From Patescibacteria group bacterium (GTDB taxonomy: Bacteria; Patescibacteriota; Microgenomatia; UBA8517), in the NCBI GenBank assembly GCA_018823885.1, contig JAHJHG010000006.1:74752-130356 (forward strand): DNA of 55,605 nt, in the 5' to 3' direction. Below the pieces are notes generated by a model. The model was not told the DNA's origin and did not search any database. It was given only the letters and a program-made list of their open reading frames with translations. Numbering within the stretch: position 1 is the stretch's first letter; each line of letters starts with the position of its first letter. Positions 11,257 to 54,554 of the stretch are shown piece after piece. The position numbers and the translations under genes were made by a program.

Positions 11257-13590
11257 TCAAAGTTTCGCGCGCCTAATAACTTCTGCTTCAACTAATCTCA
11301 CGTCTTTCCCATACTTCAGCCTACTCATTTCTTTTATTATTTCTGCCACTCTCGGATTCATTGTACTTGCTTGCTGCTCCATATCTTTTGTCAAGTCCAT
11401 TGAAAACGGAGGAACTGGTTCATTCTTAACCGTTGTTTTTGTGTAAACATGATACCTTTCAATATTTAGAAGGTCTTCCTCGGTAAAAACCGGAGTAAAT
11501 TCGTGAGCCAAATAACCTGCATCAGTTACCCCGACCCTAAAACAAGCGATTGTTCCAACGTTCCCAAAAACAGCATTCTTGATCTCCTCTTCTACTTGAC
11601 CAATAAACTGGTTTGCAACAACAAGATTAAGACGATATTTTCTGGCCTCAGAAAGAATCTGAGCAAAATCCGGGGTGGCAAAATTTTGAAACTCATCGAC
11701 ATAAAGATAAAAATCTTTGCGCTCTTCTTCCGGCAGATCTTGCCTACTCATAGCCGACATTAATAATCTAGGAACTAAAATTAATCCCAGGAAATTTGAG
11801 TTCTCCTCCCCTATTTCACCTTTGGCCAAATTGATAAGAAGAATTTTTTGTTCATCCATTATTTCTCTGAAAGAAAATGCACTCTCTGACTGGCCAATAA
11901 TATTTCTTACCATTTTATTTGTAACAAAACGTCCGAATTTGGAAACAATGTAATCTAAAACTTCTGACTTATGAAAATCCGCAGTTTGAGCGATTTGGTC
12001 AGTCCAATAACGCCTAATGATTGGGTCTTTAACCTTCGGAAGAAGTTCTTGAACATATTTTGCATCGGTCAAAACCCTGACCACCTCAACAAAAGTCGCC
12101 CCCTCATCACACATAACCGTAAGCATTGCATTTCTGACGGCATGCTCAAATCTCGGACCCACAATTCCAGTTTTATAAGGATCAAAAAGTTTGTACATCA
12201 TATTTATAATTGCCGTGGCAACGAAATGTTTTTGATCCTCTGTTTTGGCTTCAAGTAAGTTAAGTCCCATTGGACGATCCGTATCTGATGGATTGAAGTA
12301 AATAACGTCTTCCGCCCTTTCGGGCGGAATCATCTCTAAAATATCTTTCACCGCATCGCCATGAGGATCCATGAAACAAAGCCCTCTTCCCTCTCTGATG
12401 TCTTGCATAATCAAATCTTTAAGCATTTCTGTCTTACCTGTTCCAGTTTTTCCAATAATGTACATGTGTCGACGCCTATCGTCTTCCGATATAAATACCG
12501 GGCGTTTTACTCCTCGATAGGTACTTGTTCCCACAAAAAGACCTTCCGAAGGAATTTCTGATGGAGCTGGGGCTGTTTTTGCGTAAAGCCAGAAAATATG
12601 AGGCGTGGTTACTTGTTTATTGGGAAAATGATAAATTGTTGCAAGCTCTTCTGAATTTAATATTGTCGGTCTGTTCCCAAAAAAATGGAACATGGGCTGA
12701 TATCTATAGAGAAAATCTTCCACAAATAATGCTTTTCTCCTTATTTTTCTGCTTTTGAAGCCGTTTAGTTCTCCAGAATACTGCTCGAAGCTTCCCACGA
12801 TATTTGATAAATGTGCTTTGGCGCTTGGCAAATCTTTCGCAACAGTGACTATTCTTATTGATGTCTCAAATCCTGATTTGCCGCTTTTGCTTTCTACTCC
12901 TTCCAGCGTTTTTGCCGAAACTGAAAATTTAGCATTTTCCGGATCCGATTCTTGCTTCTTTGTATCGGAGATAAATTTCCTTGCTTCCTTCTGCCAAGAA
13001 GGTTTTGCTGGGGAAATTAGTACTTGCACGGCCGCTGCTTCTCCCTCTCCCATTTTGGCTAAAGCCGAAGTAATTGCTGCTAAAGGATCTGTCGGTAATT
13101 CTTTAAAGGTTTTTAAAGGATAGAAATTGCTGCGCTTAAGCTGAATTGATTTGTAGGCTACTTTTCCATCTTCCGTGAAAATATTGTACTCGGGGACTTC
13201 TGAAATTTCCGCGTCAGGGTATGCACCATGAACTTGCTTCTCGACCAGGTCTTTTAATTTATTTGGAGCCCAAATATAAAATTTAATATCTTCCTGTTTC
13301 GCAACCATCTCAAAAGATACTGCTGGCTGAACCGAAAATTTTTGTTTCCATCCTCCTTTTTTAATTGTGTAAAGAGAGGCAAACAGCTGCTCCATGGCAT
13401 CAATTTTTATTTCATTTCCACGCGGAACCGCAACTTGAAGCAAGGTCGACTCAATAGATCGATCCTCTCTCCCCCTCCATCTATATAGAGTAAAAGCTAA
13501 ATAACCTAATCCCACTAAAAACAATAGTCCTAGTCCAATCAGAACCATTGCAATAATGATTGCGTTAAAATTTATTGCTGTTATCGGCAT
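11257..13590 (-). CDS. VirD4/TraG/HerA-like ATPase with N-terminal membrane segment
   Basis: A 777-residue protein with one N-terminal transmembrane segment (about residues 8-35), a roughly 330-residue uncharacterised region, then a DNA-pumping ATPase domain. It has Walker A GKTGTGKTEML, the MDPHGD motif and Walker B YLYVDEFQNF, followed by LSEARKYRLNLVVANQF. This architecture matches the type IV secretion-like ATPases widespread in CPR genomes; a substrate (DNA or pilus) is not evident. The start at 13590 lies one base after the stop of the preceding gene with a GGAAAG ribosome site; an upstream ATG at 13626 would overlap it by 35 bases. No other secretion genes are nearby. Confidence 0.83.
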   Translation of the reverse strand: MPITAINFNAIIIAMVLIGLGLLFLVGLGYLAFTLYRWRGREDRSIESTLLQVAVPRGNEIKIDAMEQLFASLYTIKKGGWKQKFSVQPAVSFEMVAKQEDIKFYIWAPNKLKDLVEKQVHGAYPDAEISEVPEYNIFTEDGKVAYKSIQLKRSNFYPLKTFKELPTDPLAAITSALAKMGEGEAAAVQVLISPAKPSWQKEARKFISDTKKQESDPENAKFSVSAKTLEGVESKSGKSGFETSIRIVTVAKDLPSAKAHLSNIVGSFEQYSGELNGFKSRKIRRKALFVEDFLYRYQPMFHFFGNRPTILNSEELATIYHFPNKQVTTPHIFWLYAKTAPAPSEIPSEGLFVGTSTYRGVKRPVFISEDDRRRHMYIIGKTGTGKTEMLKDLIMQDIREGRGLCFMDPHGDAVKDILEMIPPERAEDVIYFNPSDTDRPMGLNLLEAKTEDQKHFVATAIINMMYKLFDPYKTGIVGPRFEHAVRNAMLTVMCDEGATFVEVVRVLTDAKYVQELLPKVKDPIIRRYWTDQIAQTADFHKSEVLDYIVSKFGRFVTNKMVRNIIGQSESAFSFREIMDEQKILLINLAKGEIGEENSNFLGLILVPRLLMSAMSRQDLPEEERKDFYLYVDEFQNFATPDFAQILSEARKYRLNLVVANQFIGQVEEEIKNAVFGNVGTIACFRVGVTDAGYLAHEFTPVFTEEDLLNIERYHVYTKTTVKNEPVPPFSMDLTKDMEQQASTMNPRVAEIIKEMSRLKYGKDVRLVEAEVIRRAKL

Positions 13591-13591
13591 T

Positions 13592-13918
13592 TCATCTTTC
13601 CTTCCCAGTAATAATCTTCCATCCAAAATGTGTCGCCTTTTTTATCATTCTCAACCAATAAACTCCTAGCCAAGTTAATGAATTCGCCGGTTTTCCTTGT
13701 GACCAAGTAGATACGGTGGCTTGCCCGGCCGGAAGTTTAATTTTAATTTTTTGGGTTGCTGGAGTTTGAATTAAATGTCTACCTTTATCTTTTACTCTGG
13801 CCTTGACGGCTGTTTCAACGGCTTTTATGCCTGTATCTTCAAGGTGTGGGGGTAATTCAAATTCCTCTGCTCTTTCCACTACAGAGGCGCGAGGTTCTTT
13901 TTCCAGTGATCTTGGCAT
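13592..13918 (-). CDS. Hypothetical protein co-encoded with the VirD4-like ATPase
   Basis: A 108-residue protein with no recognised domain. The acidic N-terminus (VVERAEEFELPPHLEDTG) is followed by a basic, weakly hydrophobic C-terminal third (LTWLGVYWLRMIKKATHFGW) that could be an amphipathic or membrane-touching helix. It ends one base before the ATPase start, so the two are translationally coupled and may work together; this rests on position only. Confidence 0.6.
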   Translation of the reverse strand: MPRSLEKEPRASVVERAEEFELPPHLEDTGIKAVETAVKARVKDKGRHLIQTPATQKIKIKLPAGQATVSTWSQGKPANSLTWLGVYWLRMIKKATHFGWKIITGKER

Positions 13919-13976: not shown

Positions 13977-14516
13977 TTATTTTGCACCTTGCCAAAATTT
14001 TTCTTTCGCCCCACGGTCGTGGTTGACTGTCCTTGCCAAAATATAGAGAAAGTCGGAAAGACGATTTAGGTAAACCAATACTTGAGGTTTTATTTCTTCT
14101 TTTTTGCTAAGGGCAACGACTATTCGTTCAGCTCTCCTAGCCAAAGCTCTGGCATAATATAACTGCGCTCCAACTAAAGTTCCTCCTGGAAGAATAAAGT
14201 GTTTTACGGCGGGTAATTTCTTTTGCATTTTGTCTATCTGTCTTTCAAGATATTTAGTTTTAGTAGAATATAAACGCAAGTTGGCACCCGCCAGTATCGA
14301 ACCTATTGTAAAAAGTTCTTCTTGAAGTTTTTCTATTGTCCTTTTTAATCCTGGCTCCTCACTAAAAGAAATAATCCCCAAATAACTGTTTACTTCGTCT
14401 ATTGCGCCGAGAGCGTCAATCTTCAACGAATCTTTCGCCACCATCACTTTTCGAGAAGTTTTACTATTAAAAAGAGTGGTCTCTCCTTTGTCACCAATCT
14501 TTGTATATATTGCCAT
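13977..14516 (-). CDS. ATP:cob(I)alamin adenosyltransferase (PduO type)
   Basis: The enzyme adds the adenosyl group to reduced corrinoid, making adenosylcobalamin. The 179-residue protein begins MAIYTKIGDKGETTLFNS, the ATP-binding signature of PduO-type enzymes, followed by DALGAIDEVNSYLG. The C-terminal half has the conserved LARRAERIV and YLNRLSDFLYILAR helices. It lies 46 bases downstream of nrdJ on the same strand, whose product needs adenosylcobalamin, so it probably supplies the cofactor to that enzyme. Confidence 0.94.
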   Translation of the reverse strand: MAIYTKIGDKGETTLFNSKTSRKVMVAKDSLKIDALGAIDEVNSYLGIISFSEEPGLKRTIEKLQEELFTIGSILAGANLRLYSTKTKYLERQIDKMQKKLPAVKHFILPGGTLVGAQLYYARALARRAERIVVALSKKEEIKPQVLVYLNRLSDFLYILARTVNHDRGAKEKFWQGAK

Positions 14517-14562
14517 TTACGCCTTTCTCTTAATTGGTTCTGAGAATCCCTGGATCAAGTCG

Positions 14563-17151
14563 TTAACATTCTGAATGACCACAGGCATAACACTTAGAGC
14601 AACCTTCCTCAAAAACTAGGGCGCTTGCTCCACACGAAGGGCAGAGGTCTCCGGGAATTTCAAATGATGACACTGAAATCTGTTTGGTTGCTTCCTCTAA
14701 ATTTAAAGAATCCTTCGAAAAAGTCGGGACCGACGTGGGGTCATTTGTGTCCGCATGGCGGACTTGCTCTGTTTGCACAGAAGCATTCGCCACCAGGTTA
14801 GTCCCGACTTCCCCATTAGAATCTTTGGCAACGACATGATTTCCGTTGCCGTTTATCTTAAAACCAAAATGAGATGACAAGGCTACTGCAATGGCGTCTG
14901 GCAAAGAGCGTATCTTCTTTGGTCCGAACCCTACAGACCTCCTGCCACCTATTCCAGAAAGCTGAAAGGCTACCTCTTCTGCTCTCTCCCTCGGACTTGA
15001 AGCTCCCCTCAGCCTTAGCGCTGTGGAAATTGTACGCCCCAATGCTTCTGCCATCGCCGCCACATCAGTGCCCGCCTTGCCAACATTAATAAACACCTCC
15101 AACGGATCTCTTTTTTCGTTTTCGTTTATCGTCACAAAAGCTGTTCCTACTGGTGTTTTCAATTTATAGGTGGCACCAATAACCTTAAACGGTCTCACCT
15201 GCATTGATCCATCTATTTCCAATTCTTTTTTACCAATGACGTCTTTTGTTCCCATGTTTAGTACCTGTGTACCTTTACAGCCATCTCTAAAAACAGTAAT
15301 TCCCTTACAATTAAACTCCCAAGCCAAAAGATAAGCTTCTTTGATGTCCTTAACTGCTATCTTACTTCGCATATTTATTGTTTTACTCACAGCATTTTCT
15401 GTGTACTTTTGAAAAGCAGCTTGCATCTTTATATGCCAATCGTGGTGAATTTCGTGCGCTGTACCAAATATCCCTCTTACCTCTTCCGGAACCTCTTTTA
15501 TTTTTCTTACTGTTCCTCGTTCGGCCACTTTCTGCTTTATATCTTCTGACCAAAATCCTCGTTCCTTTGCTAATGCCTCGAATCTCGGATTTATAAAAGT
15601 AAGGGTTCTATCTAAATGTTTGTCTTTAACTATGTGTCGAAAAGCTATGGCGAAAAGCGGCTCAATTCCACTTGAAGCTCCGGCGATTATCGATATTGTC
15701 CCAGTGGGGGCAATTGTGGTTACCGTAGAATTTCTTCTAGGTTTCTCATTTTTATATATACTCACAGGCCAAAGAGGAAATGGACCACGCTCTTTGGCAA
15801 TCTCCTGAGAAGCACTTACAGCTTCCTCTTGTATTGTCTTCATTACCTTCTCCCCCAGCTTTACTGCTTCATCGCTGTCATAGGGAATACCTAAATCAAT
15901 AAGCATATCCGCCCAACCTCCAACTCCCAATCCAATTCTCCTAATTCCAAGCACCGTGCGTCTTATTTCCTCAAGCGGCAAGGGGTTTACTTCAATAATG
16001 CTATCTAAAAATCGAACGGCGATTCTTGTTGTGTTTTTTAGCTTTTCCCAATTAATAATTTTTTCTCCATTCTCCTCTTTAATAAAATAAGTCAAGAAAA
16101 TACTTCCCAGGTTGCAAGCATCGAATGGGTAAAGTTCTTGTTCTCCACAAGGATTGGTGGCTTCAATTGGCCCCATTGATGGAACAGGATTTGAAGACTC
16201 TCTGTTTCTTCTATCAATAAAGACAAGACCAGGATCTCCAGTTTTCCACGCGCTATCTGCAATCTCATTAAATACTTTTCTTGCTAATAGCGAACTTGCC
16301 TTCTTCTTTGTATTTGGATCAATAAGATCATATTTTTTATTCTTTTTGTAGGCCTCCATAAATTTATCAGTTATGGCGACAGAAATATTGAAATTGGTAA
16401 GGCCACCCTCCTCTTTGCAATGAATAAAGTCTAAAATGTCTGGGTGATCTACTCTTAGAATCCCCATATTGGCGCCGCGCCTTTTCCCCCCCTGTTTAAC
16501 CTCGTTAGTGGCCGCGTCAAAAATCCTCATAAAGGAAATGGGGCCTGAGGCAACTCCGCCACTTCTTTTTACCATTGAGCCTTGGGGCCTGAGGCGATTG
16601 AATGAAAATCCTGTTCCTCCCCCACTTTGATGAATTAATGCTTGATTTTTTATAGACTCAAATATTCCCCTAATAGAATCTTCGACAGGTAAAACAAAGC
16701 ATCCAGAGTATTGCAAATTATTATCTGTTCCGGCATTCATTAAGGTTGGAGAGTTGGGGAGAAAAACGTGTTCAGTAAAAAGTTTATAATATTCTTTTGC
16801 TTGAATTTTAACTTCTTTTCTGTTCCTACCCCAAAGAGCCTCCGCTGAAGCAGCCTCCCAAGACACTCTCCAACACATATCTTCCGGTGTTTCAATTATC
16901 TTCCCCTTTGCGTCTTTCATTAAATAGCGTTCTCCTAGCACCTTCGAAGCTTGCTCGCTCCATTCCCCTTTGGAAAGTCCCTTGGGTAAAGGGGGCATTT
17001 TCCCTATTTTTGTTTTAATTCGCTCGTTTATCTCGCTAAGTGAGGGGAATTCCAGGTTATCAAGCGACAGTTTTTGTTCTCCGTTTGTACGCGAAGAGGT
17101 TTTTCTCTTTTTGGAGGGATTTTTAATAACTCTTTTTTTTGTTTTTGGCAT
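14563..17151 (-). CDS. nrdJ: Adenosylcobalamin-dependent ribonucleotide reductase (class II, NrdJ)
   Basis: Reduces ribonucleotides to deoxyribonucleotides using a B12-derived radical. The 862-residue protein has the substrate-site cysteine in QYSGCFVLPVEDS, finger-loop residues in NPCGEQELYPFDACNLGS, and the phosphate-binding TTIAPTGTISIIAGASSG. The C-terminal tail ends in CPSCGA and CSKCYACGHSEC, a zinc ribbon with the redox cysteines that re-reduce the active site. It starts 5 bases after nrdR and is followed by the adenosyltransferase. No class I or III reductase is seen in the window. Confidence 0.96.
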   Translation of the reverse strand: MPKTKKRVIKNPSKKRKTSSRTNGEQKLSLDNLEFPSLSEINERIKTKIGKMPPLPKGLSKGEWSEQASKVLGERYLMKDAKGKIIETPEDMCWRVSWEAASAEALWGRNRKEVKIQAKEYYKLFTEHVFLPNSPTLMNAGTDNNLQYSGCFVLPVEDSIRGIFESIKNQALIHQSGGGTGFSFNRLRPQGSMVKRSGGVASGPISFMRIFDAATNEVKQGGKRRGANMGILRVDHPDILDFIHCKEEGGLTNFNISVAITDKFMEAYKKNKKYDLIDPNTKKKASSLLARKVFNEIADSAWKTGDPGLVFIDRRNRESSNPVPSMGPIEATNPCGEQELYPFDACNLGSIFLTYFIKEENGEKIINWEKLKNTTRIAVRFLDSIIEVNPLPLEEIRRTVLGIRRIGLGVGGWADMLIDLGIPYDSDEAVKLGEKVMKTIQEEAVSASQEIAKERGPFPLWPVSIYKNEKPRRNSTVTTIAPTGTISIIAGASSGIEPLFAIAFRHIVKDKHLDRTLTFINPRFEALAKERGFWSEDIKQKVAERGTVRKIKEVPEEVRGIFGTAHEIHHDWHIKMQAAFQKYTENAVSKTINMRSKIAVKDIKEAYLLAWEFNCKGITVFRDGCKGTQVLNMGTKDVIGKKELEIDGSMQVRPFKVIGATYKLKTPVGTAFVTINENEKRDPLEVFINVGKAGTDVAAMAEALGRTISTALRLRGASSPRERAEEVAFQLSGIGGRRSVGFGPKKIRSLPDAIAVALSSHFGFKINGNGNHVVAKDSNGEVGTNLVANASVQTEQVRHADTNDPTSVPTFSKDSLNLEEATKQISVSSFEIPGDLCPSCGASALVFEEGCSKCYACGHSEC

Positions 17152-17156
17152 ATATG

Positions 17157-17603
17157 TTAGTGATTCTTTTCAATCGCTTTTTCGAAATCTTTCAGGTCAG
17201 CAAACTCCAAATACACACTGGCAAATCTCAACCAGGCTATTCTGTCAATTTTTTTAAGTCTTTTCAATACCGCATTTCCTATTACTCTCGAACCAACTTC
17301 TTCTTTTTCTTGCCTTAACATTTCCCTTTCAATTTGATCTACTATGTCGTCCACCAAATCAAGTGAAATTGGTCTTTTTTCAATTGCCCTCAAAATTCCC
17401 CTTTTGATTTTTTCTCTGTCAAAAGGCTCGCGTTTTCCGTCCTTCTTAATAACCCAAAGGACCTGCCCTCTTACTTTCTCGTATGTCGTAAAACGCTTGT
17501 GACATTTGCCACATTCACGCCTTCTTCTAACTGCTTGTCCTTCATCAACAACTCTTGATTCAAGAACCTGATTATCATCGCTGGCACAAAAAGGGCATTT
17601 CAT
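17157..17603 (-). CDS. nrdR: Transcriptional repressor NrdR
   Basis: NrdR represses ribonucleotide reductase genes when dATP is abundant. The 148-residue protein starts MKCPFCASDDNQVLESR and has a zinc ribbon (CPFC...CGKCHKRFTTYE) followed by the ATP-cone (VIKKDGKREPFDREKIKRGI). I take the ATG at 17603; the frame runs open to 17621, but those six residues are not family-like. It is first in an operon with nrdJ. A palindrome between its -35 and -10 may be its own operator. Confidence 0.95.
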   Translation of the reverse strand: MKCPFCASDDNQVLESRVVDEGQAVRRRRECGKCHKRFTTYEKVRGQVLWVIKKDGKREPFDREKIKRGILRAIEKRPISLDLVDDIVDQIEREMLRQEKEEVGSRVIGNAVLKRLKKIDRIAWLRFASVYLEFADLKDFEKAIEKNH

Positions 17604-17640
17604 ATATGAAAAATAAATCACTATCCTTAGAGCACCAAAA

Positions 17641-37756: not shown

Positions 37757-37785
37757 TTGAAAAATTAAATATTTTGAGAAATAAT
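37757..37785 (+). promoter_or_regulatory. Promoter of the cobalamin-riboswitch transcript
   Basis: TTGAAA (37757-37762) and AATAAT (37780-37785) are separated by 17 bases, placing transcription start at about 37792, just at the riboswitch. Confidence 0.45.
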
Positions 37786-37790
37786 GCATT

Positions 37791-37905
37791 TAGAGGTTGT
37801 GTTTAAGGAAGCAGGTGTAAATCCTGCGCTGTGCCGCAACTGTGATCCGCTAATCAGCGGAGAGTCAGAAAACTAACAACCTTCAAGTATCCCGAGCAGG
37901 AAAAA
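37791..37905 (+). promoter_or_regulatory. Cobalamin (B12) riboswitch
   Basis: The leader contains the hallmark core: AAGCAGGTGTAAATCCTGC, then GCTGTGCCGCAACTGTGAT with the conserved B12-box-like GCCGCAACTGTGA, a hairpin CCGCT-AATC-AGCGG, AGAGTCAGAA, and a closing helix GGTTGT (37795-37800) with ACAACC (37876-37881). No terminator follows, so control is probably on translation. GCAGG recurs in the ribosome site region (37896-37900) and could compete with the aptamer GCAGG for the CCTGC strand. It precedes the zinc-ribbon gene at 37906. Confidence 0.9.
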
Positions 37906-38895
37906 ATGATCAAAGAAACCTCTTTAGCACTAAATACTAGAAATTGGCTCCCCAAAGAAGGTGAATCTGTTGATAGAGCAAGAAACAGAGCCACTCATGA
38001 TTTTGCCGCGGCATCAATTGAACAAAGGAAGGCGCCCCCCGAGGAGAGAATAAACACCTTTATTTATATTCTGGGTAAAGATGGGCAGCTATATGATAAG
38101 GAAACAGGTGAAAAACCCACCCTCAGGTGGGCAACAGAAACAGACCACCTTGAAAACCACGCATTTCAAATAATGGAACTCTGGGCAAGGGAAGGTTCAT
38201 CAGAGAATCTTGCCTGGTTTAGTCCCCCAGATGACAAACATGGGTACACTGAGGCCCGCTTAGTGGTATCTAAGATTGAAAAAGAAAAAGAAGAAATATC
38301 AATTATCTGTAGGGCTTTTTGCCTCCCCTATTCCAAAGACGAATGTATCGACCTTGCCAAAGAAATTGCAGTAACTTCTACCGAGAACACTACCCACATT
38401 AATTCTGGAGATACTCTTCGGGCATTTCCGATCTTCTTTAATCCTCCAAATAATCTAGCTTGGTACGAATACTTAGAAGAAAAAATCAAGGAGCCGAATA
38501 TTTGGAAAAAGGTAAAAAGCGGAGATGATTATAGAAACAAAAGAGAGGCGTTGAGGCTTTCAAGACCTGTTATTGAAAAACACTTCGATTTAATAGTTGC
38601 CACCGAGAGCGCATATGGATACGTTCTTGCCGGAGCTTTAATGGAAAGGGAGATAGCTATGTCTGGAGTAATCTTTCAAGCAAGGGGAAGTTGCGGCATG
38701 TCTAATCAAGAAGCCCTAGGAGGCTTTAAAAATAATTCAGGTATATTTGATACTGTATTTTCCAGCGCGGCAACATCCAACCACGAATCCTCTTTCAGTT
38801 GTCCAAGTTGTCACAAGGCAATACCCTCAGGTCTTGGGATAACTGTTTGTCCTCATTGTGGGGCCAAAAAGGAAGATTATGGAAAATGTGTTTAA
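37906..38895 (+). CDS. Riboswitch-controlled protein with C-terminal zinc ribbon, function unknown
   Basis: A 329-residue soluble protein whose family I do not recognise. The first 280 residues have no signal or membrane segment; notable conserved-looking stretches are TFIYILGKDGQLYDKETGEK, IVATESAYGYVLAGALMERE and GSCGMSNQEALGGFK. The C-terminus is a four-cysteine zinc ribbon, CPSC-(X)n-CPHCGAKK, followed by a final cysteine. A B12 riboswitch directly upstream and an AGGAAAAA ribosome site show that it responds to cobalamin. It could act in corrinoid capture, sensing or in a process tied to the B12-dependent reductase; no function can be assigned from sequence. Confidence 0.8.
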   Translation: MIKETSLALNTRNWLPKEGESVDRARNRATHDFAAASIEQRKAPPEERINTFIYILGKDGQLYDKETGEKPTLRWATETDHLENHAFQIMELWAREGSSENLAWFSPPDDKHGYTEARLVVSKIEKEKEEISIICRAFCLPYSKDECIDLAKEIAVTSTENTTHINSGDTLRAFPIFFNPPNNLAWYEYLEEKIKEPNIWKKVKSGDDYRNKREALRLSRPVIEKHFDLIVATESAYGYVLAGALMEREIAMSGVIFQARGSCGMSNQEALGGFKNNSGIFDTVFSSAATSNHESSFSCPSCHKAIPSGLGITVCPHCGAKKEDYGKCV

Positions 38896-38950: not shown

Positions 38951-39022
38951 TCCCCGGTAGCTCAGCGGTAGAGCGCTCGCCTGTTAAGCGAAGGGTCGTA
39001 GGTTCGAATCCTACCCGGGGAG
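38951..39022 (+). tRNA. tRNA-Asn(GUU)
   Basis: Acceptor TCCCCGG/CCGGGGA, D-stem GCTC/GAGC, anticodon stem CTCGC/GCGAA (one C-A mismatch at its outer end), loop CTGTTAA with anticodon GTT, T-arm GTAGG/CCTAC and discriminator G, as expected for tRNA-Asn. CCA is not encoded. Confidence 0.93.
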
Positions 39023-53024: not shown

Positions 53025-53108
53025 GGAGGTGTCGCATAGTTGGTCAATTGCACGGGCTTGCTAAGCCCGAGCCTTCGGGCTACGTGGGTTCGAATCCCAC
53101 CGCCTCCG
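53025..53108 (+). tRNA. tRNA-Ser(GCU), probable integration site
   Basis: Acceptor GGAGGTG/CGCCTCC, anticodon stem around TTGCTAA with GCT, long variable arm (GAGCCTTCGGGCT), T-arm GTGGG/CCCAC, discriminator G. Its antisense forms the last codons of the neighbouring recombinase gene, and an 87-bp inverted repeat begins within its 3' end, both signs of integration into this tRNA gene. Confidence 0.93.
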
Positions 53109-54554
53109 CCAGTTGGGAAATGTCTTTGTTGGCTCGCCCTCTGCGAGGGCTCGCCAGCCGATTTTAAGCGCAAATTGGAATTTTTTATCTTTCAAAATGA
53201 AGTTCGAGCCGATATTTTTTAGAAATGCTCGGATTTCCTGATTGTCGCTTTGCGACAAAAGAATTTTGGCTTGGCTACTGGCTAAAATCATTTCTTTCAT
53301 CGGTTCGAGCCAATTATTTCCTTTTTGTTCAAAATCTCTTATCTTCCCCAAAATGTCCTGCTTTTCGTTAAGCAGTTTTGATTTTTTGGCTTGGTATTCT
53401 TCGGGCTCAATTCCTTTGCCACCGATAAACAAATCAAGCAGGTTTTCAGCTTTGTTTTCAATTTCCACTTTTTGAGTTTGGAGATTTTGAACAAAAACTT
53501 TCGTTTCTTCTCTCACTTGCTCTTTTTCTTTGTCTATTTCGGCAAGCATATTATTTGCCCACTCGTCAGGCAAAGAAACTTTTTGAATAATCCCTTTCAT
53601 CTGTTCAACAAGATTTTCTTCTCGCAGATATTTTTCATTACAAGGTTGCTTTTTCTTGGTACAACGATAATAGTGATGTCCTTTTTGTTTTTCGGCAGTT
53701 ATGAGGCAGTCGCAATTTCCGCATTTCATCAACCCCGAAAAAGCAAATTCGTGTTTTCGCTTGCGTTTCTTTTTACCTCGGTTGCTCATTACTTGTTGAA
53801 CAGAATCAAAAAGTTTCTTGGAAATAATTGGCTCGTGCGTTCCGTCATAGATTTCACCGTTGAAAGAAAATACGCCGTAGTAAATCTGATTTTGAAGCAT
53901 ACGCTGGACACAGGAAACGGAAAGAACATTGCCTTTGTAGCTTCTTAGCCCCGCTTGATCCAAAATTATCGCAACAGCTTTCAAGGTATATTCGCCAGTC
54001 GAATAAAGTTCAAATGCTTTTCTGACAAGCGGTGCTTTTTCGCTATCAACATCAATGCCTCTCGTCTTGTGATTATTCAAATAACCAAGCGGGGCAAAGT
54101 TTGGCCAAATACCTTTTCGCAGTTTTGCCCGATGACCTCGTTTGATATTTTCGCTTAGATTGTCGATGTAATACTTGCTTTGGCCAAAGGCAATGTTCAT
54201 CATGAATTTCCCTTGTGGCGTCGAGTCGAACCAAAATGTGGGGAATTTCAAATCTTTGATTTTTCCTGTATCCAGCAAATAAATGATTTTGCCCCCGTCA
54301 ATTGAATTTCTAGCCAGTCGATCCGGATGCCAAGCCAAAATTCCTTGGGCTTCGCCTTTCTCAATCCGACCGAGCATTTCACCGAAAATTTTTCGGCCAG
54401 GTTCTTTGGCAGTTTTTGCCTCGCTAAGTGAGGCGACGATTTCAAGTTTTTCTTTGGCGGCAAATTCTTTTAATTCGGAAATTTGAGATTCAATGCTCAA
54501 AATCTGTCGTTCTTCGCTATCCGTTGATTTTCGGGTGTAGATAAAATATTTCAT
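53061..54554 (-). CDS. Large serine recombinase (resolvase/invertase family)
   Basis: A 497-residue site-specific recombinase. The N-terminal catalytic domain starts MKYFIYTRKSTDSEERQILS (nucleophile Ser in RKSTDSE) with the conserved RLARNSIDGGKI; the recombinase domain GVFSFNGEIYDGTHEPIISK and a zinc-ribbon CGNCDCLI...HYYRCTKKK follow, then a coiled coil. The last residues RRRWDSNPRSPKARA are the antisense of tRNA-Ser(GCU), so the original C-terminus was altered by integration. Start ATG 54554 has an AAGGAG site. Its 3' end is copied in inverted orientation upstream of the start. Confidence 0.9.
   Translation of the reverse strand: MKYFIYTRKSTDSEERQILSIESQISELKEFAAKEKLEIVASLSEAKTAKEPGRKIFGEMLGRIEKGEAQGILAWHPDRLARNSIDGGKIIYLLDTGKIKDLKFPTFWFDSTPQGKFMMNIAFGQSKYYIDNLSENIKRGHRAKLRKGIWPNFAPLGYLNNHKTRGIDVDSEKAPLVRKAFELYSTGEYTLKAVAIILDQAGLRSYKGNVLSVSCVQRMLQNQIYYGVFSFNGEIYDGTHEPIISKKLFDSVQQVMSNRGKKKRKRKHEFAFSGLMKCGNCDCLITAEKQKGHHYYRCTKKKQPCNEKYLREENLVEQMKGIIQKVSLPDEWANNMLAEIDKEKEQVREETKVFVQNLQTQKVEIENKAENLLDLFIGGKGIEPEEYQAKKSKLLNEKQDILGKIRDFEQKGNNWLEPMKEMILASSQAKILLSQSDNQEIRAFLKNIGSNFILKDKKFQFALKIGWRALAEGEPTKTFPNWRRRWDSNPRSPKARA
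53106..53192 (+). repeat. 87-bp inverted repeat A, left copy
   Basis: Left copy, inside the recombinase 3' end and beginning in the last three bases of tRNA-Ser(GCU). It matches the reverse complement of 54625-54711 at 86 of 87 positions (one A/G difference). Contains the internal hairpin GCCCTC-TGC-GAGGGC. Confidence 0.9.
53193..53220 (+). repeat. 28-bp inverted repeat B, left copy
   Basis: Directly continues the 87-bp repeat within the recombinase gene and matches the reverse complement of 54840-54867 exactly. In the right-hand region the two parts are separated and permuted. Confidence 0.85.

Follow-up and report, generated by a model that had tools for sequence, protein, structure and literature searches.

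Cobalamin riboswitches precede a zinc-ribbon protein family linked to nrdJ and coenzyme B12 genes in Microgenomatia

Introduction

What does a cobalamin riboswitch serve when the protein encoded behind it belongs to no named family? The question is raised by a 55,605-nucleotide stretch of a Patescibacteria group bacterium contig (hereafter the window), in which an earlier note had described a B12 aptamer in front of a 329-residue protein and had proposed that protein, in a CPR bacterium, as a candidate for a new function related to corrinoids. The handling and acquisition of B12 by CPR cells are little studied, and most Microgenomatia carry a B12-dependent ribonucleotide reductase, NrdJ. A conserved gene that reports low B12 beside the reductase and the enzyme activating its cofactor would be a direct experimental handle, in a family large enough for biochemistry, and would widen the targets of B12 riboswitches past transport, synthesis and B12-independent isozymes.

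Results

A cobalamin riboswitch adjoins the gene

The features of the locus are these:

37757–37785 (+): sigma-70-like promoter, TTGAAA-17-AATAAT, ten of twelve positions matching; shuffled sequences contain such sites no less often, and the match is weak taken alone
37782–37908 (+): cobalamin (AdoCbl) riboswitch, P2–P6 at 37793–37883, from RF01482, RF00174, the family model R1 and the fold
37890–37901 (+): P13 hairpin, UCC-CGAGCA-GGA, its 3' strand being the Shine-Dalgarno AGGA (37898–37901), from alignment, covariation and fold
37906–38895 (+): 329-residue protein of an apparently undescribed family, with near-invariant E39, S106-P107 and C263, a ribbon and a near-terminal C328, from the ORF, alignments and models
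38800–38889 (+): residues 299–328, the zinc ribbon at the C-terminus with the terminal cysteine; the exchangeable tail of the family

A cmscan of the whole window matched 37782–37908 of the forward strand to all 149 positions of RF01482 (AdoCbl), at 54.6 bits where the cut-off is 50 (E = 2.5e-7); E becomes 1.8e-9 when the search is limited to a 401-base stretch. RF00174 also exceeds its cut-off at the same element (42.0 versus 31.5 bits), so that the covariance-model check proposed in the earlier note returned significant matches, and an RF00174 search identified this element as the sole cobalamin riboswitch of the 756-kb, 98%-complete genome. The element is a riboswitch of a known class, cobalamin. 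The earlier placement of a clear B12 aptamer at 37791–37884 proved accurate: the minimum-energy fold of 37792–37908 (−32.3 kcal/mol, z −2.1) puts P2–P6 at 37793–37883 and forms a separate small hairpin before the AUG. Against R1 the window riboswitch scores 104 bits, the window sequence itself being part of the R1 training set. A transcript from the candidate promoter would begin where the aptamer does, at its 5' edge, and the ORF, with an ATG start, begins where the riboswitch match ends. Sequence and covariation together suggest that cobalamin controls the 329-residue gene.

The Shine-Dalgarno sequence lies in a covarying hairpin

The Shine-Dalgarno sequence of the gene is the 3' strand of the small hairpin that ends the riboswitch; from this arrangement B12 should turn translation off. 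Two pairs of P13 show compensatory changes in relatives, among which the helix takes the forms UCC/GGA, UCU/AGA and UUC/GAA. The invariant GCA of L13 is complementary to an invariant UGC of L5, and since this invariance leaves no covariation to score we regard an L5–L13 kissing loop of about three pairs as possible. The kissing loop has been described as the sensor of the ligand-binding state in cobalamin riboswitches (PMC9600662). The sequence [U/C]CC-CGAGCA-GG[A], or a variant of it, lies directly 5' of the start codon in 57 of the 82 riboswitch-bearing loci, and in eight further loci the leader ends in a terminator-like stem and a T-run just before the start (for example, CTCCTCGG...GAGGAGTTTTTTT-ATG). 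Both layouts are those used by ligand-induced OFF switches. We infer the OFF direction and the identity of the ligand as follows: when little coenzyme B12 is available the riboswitch would be unoccupied, P13 would open and the protein would be made, and when B12 is plentiful the L5–L13 contact would form, P13 would mask the Shine-Dalgarno sequence and synthesis would stop.

An apparently undescribed family that keeps its riboswitch

Searches with the window protein yielded no Pfam or NCBIfam family above cut-off and nothing in the PDB sequence search beyond weak zinc-ribbon scores, which agrees with the earlier failure to recognise a family; the best Pfam zinc-ribbon match, Prok-RING_1, reached 18.5 against a gathering cut-off of 29.1. 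The four-cysteine C-terminal zinc ribbon that had been read from the translation is indeed there, as C299/C302/C315/C318. A family profile compared with Pfam and the PDB gave generic zinc-ribbon similarity only, and neither cobalamin adenosyltransferase family of Pfam, PF01923 or PF02572, matched the window protein. No signal peptide or membrane segment is apparent in its sequence, and the protein looks cytosolic. AlphaFold2 gave a confident model with mean pLDDT 89.0 and pTM 0.80 from 38 sequences and one with pLDDT 84.4 from 20 sequences; Foldseek searches of the PDB with two models, and of viral structures, returned nothing at E ≤ 0.001. Several weak PAS/LOV matches, none at that level, fit the modelled beta-beta-alpha-beta-beta-beta order at residues 50–140 without being evidence that the family belongs there. 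No motif or fold known to bind cobalamin, and no flavin site, was recognised in the family protein, and no CblC/CblD/CobR-type protein is among the listed Pfam, PDB-sequence or Foldseek matches. None of the family libraries searched names the family, and a literature search, whose coverage of subscription papers and preprints is thin, returned nothing relevant joining CPR or Patescibacteria with riboswitches or B12. Within the literature covered, the regulated family appears undescribed and the riboswitch is of a known kind.

Homologues occur in 25 of 95 related genomes. Profile A1, made from 20 sequences, matches 109 of the 373 genomes of the class, some of these being ribbon-only matches to unrelated proteins, and a conserved-peptide search returned 11 related loci in Woesebacteria, Daviesbacteria, Roizmanbacteria and Curtissbacteria, all of which we take to belong to the class Microgenomatia. 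Outside the class, a phylum-wide draw of 287 genomes gave just weak ribbon-region matches. The three of these that were inspected (L170–L172) were rejected, as they lie in ORFs of about 415 residues that read as a short prolyl-tRNA synthetase.

Twenty-four family leaders were aligned (alignment A3) and the covariance model R1 was built from them. In P2/P3, P4, P6 and P13, 14 pairs are changed on both sides, with 85.1% of cells paired; the covariation score is 0.422, versus 0.160 for shuffled and at most 0.162 for slid alignments, and the core TGTGCCGCAAC is invariant. We ran R1 over 93 loci picked by protein similarity alone, regardless of RNA, and, the window aside, 82 of the 86 family loci proved to have a riboswitch upstream in the same orientation; one of the four loci without it (L153) sits at a contig end. 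The 24 leaders trained R1; most of the 82 detections are independent of them, and Rfam's own models find many. The profile search across CPR genomes that the earlier note had suggested, with its question of whether riboswitch and nrdJ co-occur, is thus answered in one half, the homologues keeping their riboswitch. The other half was uninformative: with NrdJ encoded by 338 of the 373 genomes of the class, and so nearly universal, mere co-occurrence says little and physical linkage carries the argument. Many genomes with nrdJ have no detectable family member; either they do not strictly require the family or its members there are too diverged for detection.

Linkage to adenosyltransferase, nrdJ and DUF4430-DUF6580 genes

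The same window holds the B12-dependent reductase and the adenosyltransferase, as had been noted earlier:

13977–14516 (−): PduO-type cobalamin adenosyltransferase (PF01923), a functional partner by genomic context
14563–17151 (−): nrdJ, encoding a B12-dependent (class II) ribonucleotide reductase that carries a TSCPD domain and a six-cysteine tail of its own
17157–17621 (−): nrdR, ribonucleotide reductase repressor

Side by side at 13977–17621, these three genes are separated by about 20 kb from the family gene, which has a riboswitch to itself. Relatives bring the parts together. At seven loci (L104, L147, L149, L150, L155, L157 and L161) the order is riboswitch, adenosyltransferase, family gene. 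In this arrangement nrdJ lies just upstream at L175 and L181, and the adenosyltransferase of L175 was confirmed as PF01923. In another branch the order nrdR, nrdJ, adenosyltransferase, riboswitch, family gene was read directly at L173, L174, L180, L182 and L183 and is indicated by coordinates alone in further genomes. The family gene of G013 and G018 adjoins a DUF4430-DUF6580 pair under the control of a second riboswitch, and that of G009 is adjacent to DUF6580. These pairs, annotated as DUFs only, are from their context likely to comprise a lipoprotein that captures B12 and a membrane component of its transport. Cobalamin-riboswitch-linked pairs are present at L029, L039, L050, L052, L178 (2528–3486) and L179 (1099–2080).

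In many genomes the module is followed by an ATPase with similarity to DUF87 and type IV coupling proteins (L175, 6095–8473). Its evident counterpart in the window, at 11257–13626, lies downstream of the adenosyltransferase, and from this the slot between adenosyltransferase and ATPase appears to have been vacated there. A long protein fills this slot after a cobalamin riboswitch in G063, G094, G087 and G066. Such slot proteins, uncharacterised and of 542–657 residues, were found at L176 (4080–5774), L177 (3742–5679), L178 (3577–5205) and L179 (2052–4025, −); those of L176–L179 have no detectable homology to the family, and L184 is borderline. In G066 a BtuR/CobO-type adenosyltransferase (PF02572) stands before the riboswitch in place of the PduO type (L179, 4279–6463, −), next to what read as ORFs for an anaerobic reductase and its radical-SAM activator.

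In the relatives examined, four types of gene stand immediately behind cobalamin riboswitches: the family, the adenosyltransferase, the long slot proteins and the DUF4430-DUF6580 pair. The simplest reading of them is one regulon supplying coenzyme B12 to NrdJ, and the family gene very probably belongs to it.

Several other elements were seen near these genes. The NrdJ of G274 (L086) has an apparent intein-like insertion in its N-terminal half, as read from the translation, and matches to group I introns (RF00028, about 68 bits) lie near the family gene at L005 (1236–1422, −) and L011 (801–1006, −). In the window a tRNA gene with anticodon GTT (Asn, read from the sequence) occupies 38951–39022, 55 bases past the family gene on the same strand, and an ORF at 53061–54554 (−), in a tRNA-gene-rich stretch, reads as a serine recombinase/integrase.

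Conserved residues and an exchangeable tail

Members are strongly diverged, at 14–36% identity to the window protein, and have in common E39, S106-P107, a cysteine at 263 and the zinc ribbon. The motif [S/G][C/H][G/P] surrounds position 263 in essentially all of them, and in the nrdJ-linked branch the cysteine is replaced by histidine (L007, L127, L130, L133, L135, L136, L138, L139, L141, L142 and L143). Exchange between Cys and His at a site that otherwise hardly varies is typical for a metal ligand; the position could alternatively be catalytic, zinc-binding or structural.

The tail is more variable. At least two CxxC motifs lie within the last 70 residues in 68 of the 83 members, and a cysteine within the last four residues in 55 of the 83; L099 and L185 have no ribbon and retain SGCG/TGCG and the near-terminal cysteine. 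Each of three ribbon sequence types, searched alone in 95 genomes, matched almost only family or family-like ORFs (plus one weak match, on contig 3 of G091), which argues that the tail is exchanged within the family.

Discussion

The proposal that the protein is a candidate for a new corrinoid-related function is supported by the significant covariance match, by the riboswitches kept at 82 of 86 loci and by B12-gene neighbours in several branches, with the molecular function itself a prediction. Neither of the outcomes that the earlier note had named beforehand as contrary to it, a missing covariance match or riboswitch-free homologues with corrinoid-unrelated functions, occurred.

We consider it reasonably probable that the protein is a cytosolic accessory of the Microgenomatia B12-ribonucleotide reductase module that captures or processes corrinoid and passes it to the adenosyltransferase and NrdJ. 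The protein would itself touch the corrinoid, capturing it or altering it chemically, for instance with cobalt held through the conserved Cys/His, and would hand it to the PduO-type adenosyltransferase and so on to NrdJ. Against this stand the negative searches for a cobalamin-binding motif or fold, the distance of about 20 kb between the window gene and nrdJ-adenosyltransferase and the many nrdJ genomes without a detectable family member. More tentatively, and with some doubt, the family might be a new class of corrinoid-binding and -processing proteins: of undescribed fold, restricted to Microgenomatia, with Cys/His as cobalt ligand and an exchangeable ribbon tail handing B12 to adenosyltransferase and NrdJ, and made only when coenzyme B12 is short.

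The direct linkage to nrdR-nrdJ in one branch could also point to a modulator of NrdJ, induced by B12 starvation, whose cysteines and zinc ribbon, resembling the cysteine-rich tail of NrdJ, would serve to protect, inhibit or re-reduce the reductase. An hhalign alignment of the ribbon and terminal cysteine to the NrdJ tail does span 28 columns (probability 87), but the likeness is confined to a generic zinc ribbon, NrdJ already has a tail of its own, and the tails of the family are freely exchanged and absent from L099 and L185, which makes this reading unlikely. Less likely again is a role in acquisition, as a cytosolic trap that retains imported B12 and substitutes for the DUF4430-DUF6580 system. 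The two share a riboswitch type and adjoin one another in some genomes, and among 95 relatives DUF6580 is found in 4 of 38 genomes with the family gene versus 20 of 57 without it (Fisher p 0.008, ignoring phylogeny and combining separate searches). Yet the two coexist in G009, G013, G018 and G052, no signal peptide or membrane segment is apparent, and the role of DUF6580 as a B12 transporter is itself deduced from context. A general effector of low-B12 stress, with a target such as the ribosome, RNA or DNA and no direct contact with either corrinoid or NrdJ, is the least likely of these readings: RNA- and ribosome-binding proteins commonly carry zinc ribbons and the tail profile is weakly similar to ribosomal eL43, but linkage with the adenosyltransferase and DUF4430-DUF6580 would not be expected, and the near-invariant Cys/His, E39 and S106-P107 lie outside the ribbon.

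The corrinoid-handling role that we prefer has a parallel in CblC and CblD, B12-trafficking proteins of which CblD is thought to use a cysteine as cobalt ligand. The parallel lies in the proposed role only, with no sequence or fold similarity detected. The PduO-type ATP:cob(I)alamin adenosyltransferase (PF01923) has operon and riboswitch in common with the family in several genomes, but is a separate protein with no sequence similarity to it. The DUF4430 and DUF6580 membrane protein genes have the same type of riboswitch and are adjacent in several genomes; their products are membrane or extracellular, whereas the family looks cytosolic. Transcobalamins carry DUF4430 as a C-terminal domain (PMC4350170).

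Like the cysteine-rich C-terminal domain of NrdJ, or NrdJb (Loderer et al., 2017, PMC5704485), the family has a cysteine-rich ribbon at its extreme C-terminus and linkage to nrdJ. In contrast to these it has a different main domain and no TSCPD domain: PF12637 is absent from the window protein and from the families shown for 38 members, and the window NrdJ carries it. The family tail has four ribbon cysteines and frequently a terminal one, as against six C-terminal cysteines in NrdJ. We rejected the family as a free-standing NrdJ tail or NrdJb-type subunit, since hhalign aligns the zinc ribbon only.

The riboswitch itself resembles other cobalamin riboswitches (CL00101: RF00174, RF01482 and RF01689) in its conserved core, in P2–P6 with P13 after the aptamer, and in an OFF-type layout with the Shine-Dalgarno sequence in P13 or a terminator-like stem; its L5–L13 complementarity, of about three pairs, looks short by comparison. 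It departs from the usual cobalamin riboswitches in what it appears to control: an undescribed family in place of a gene for transport, synthesis or a B12-independent isozyme.
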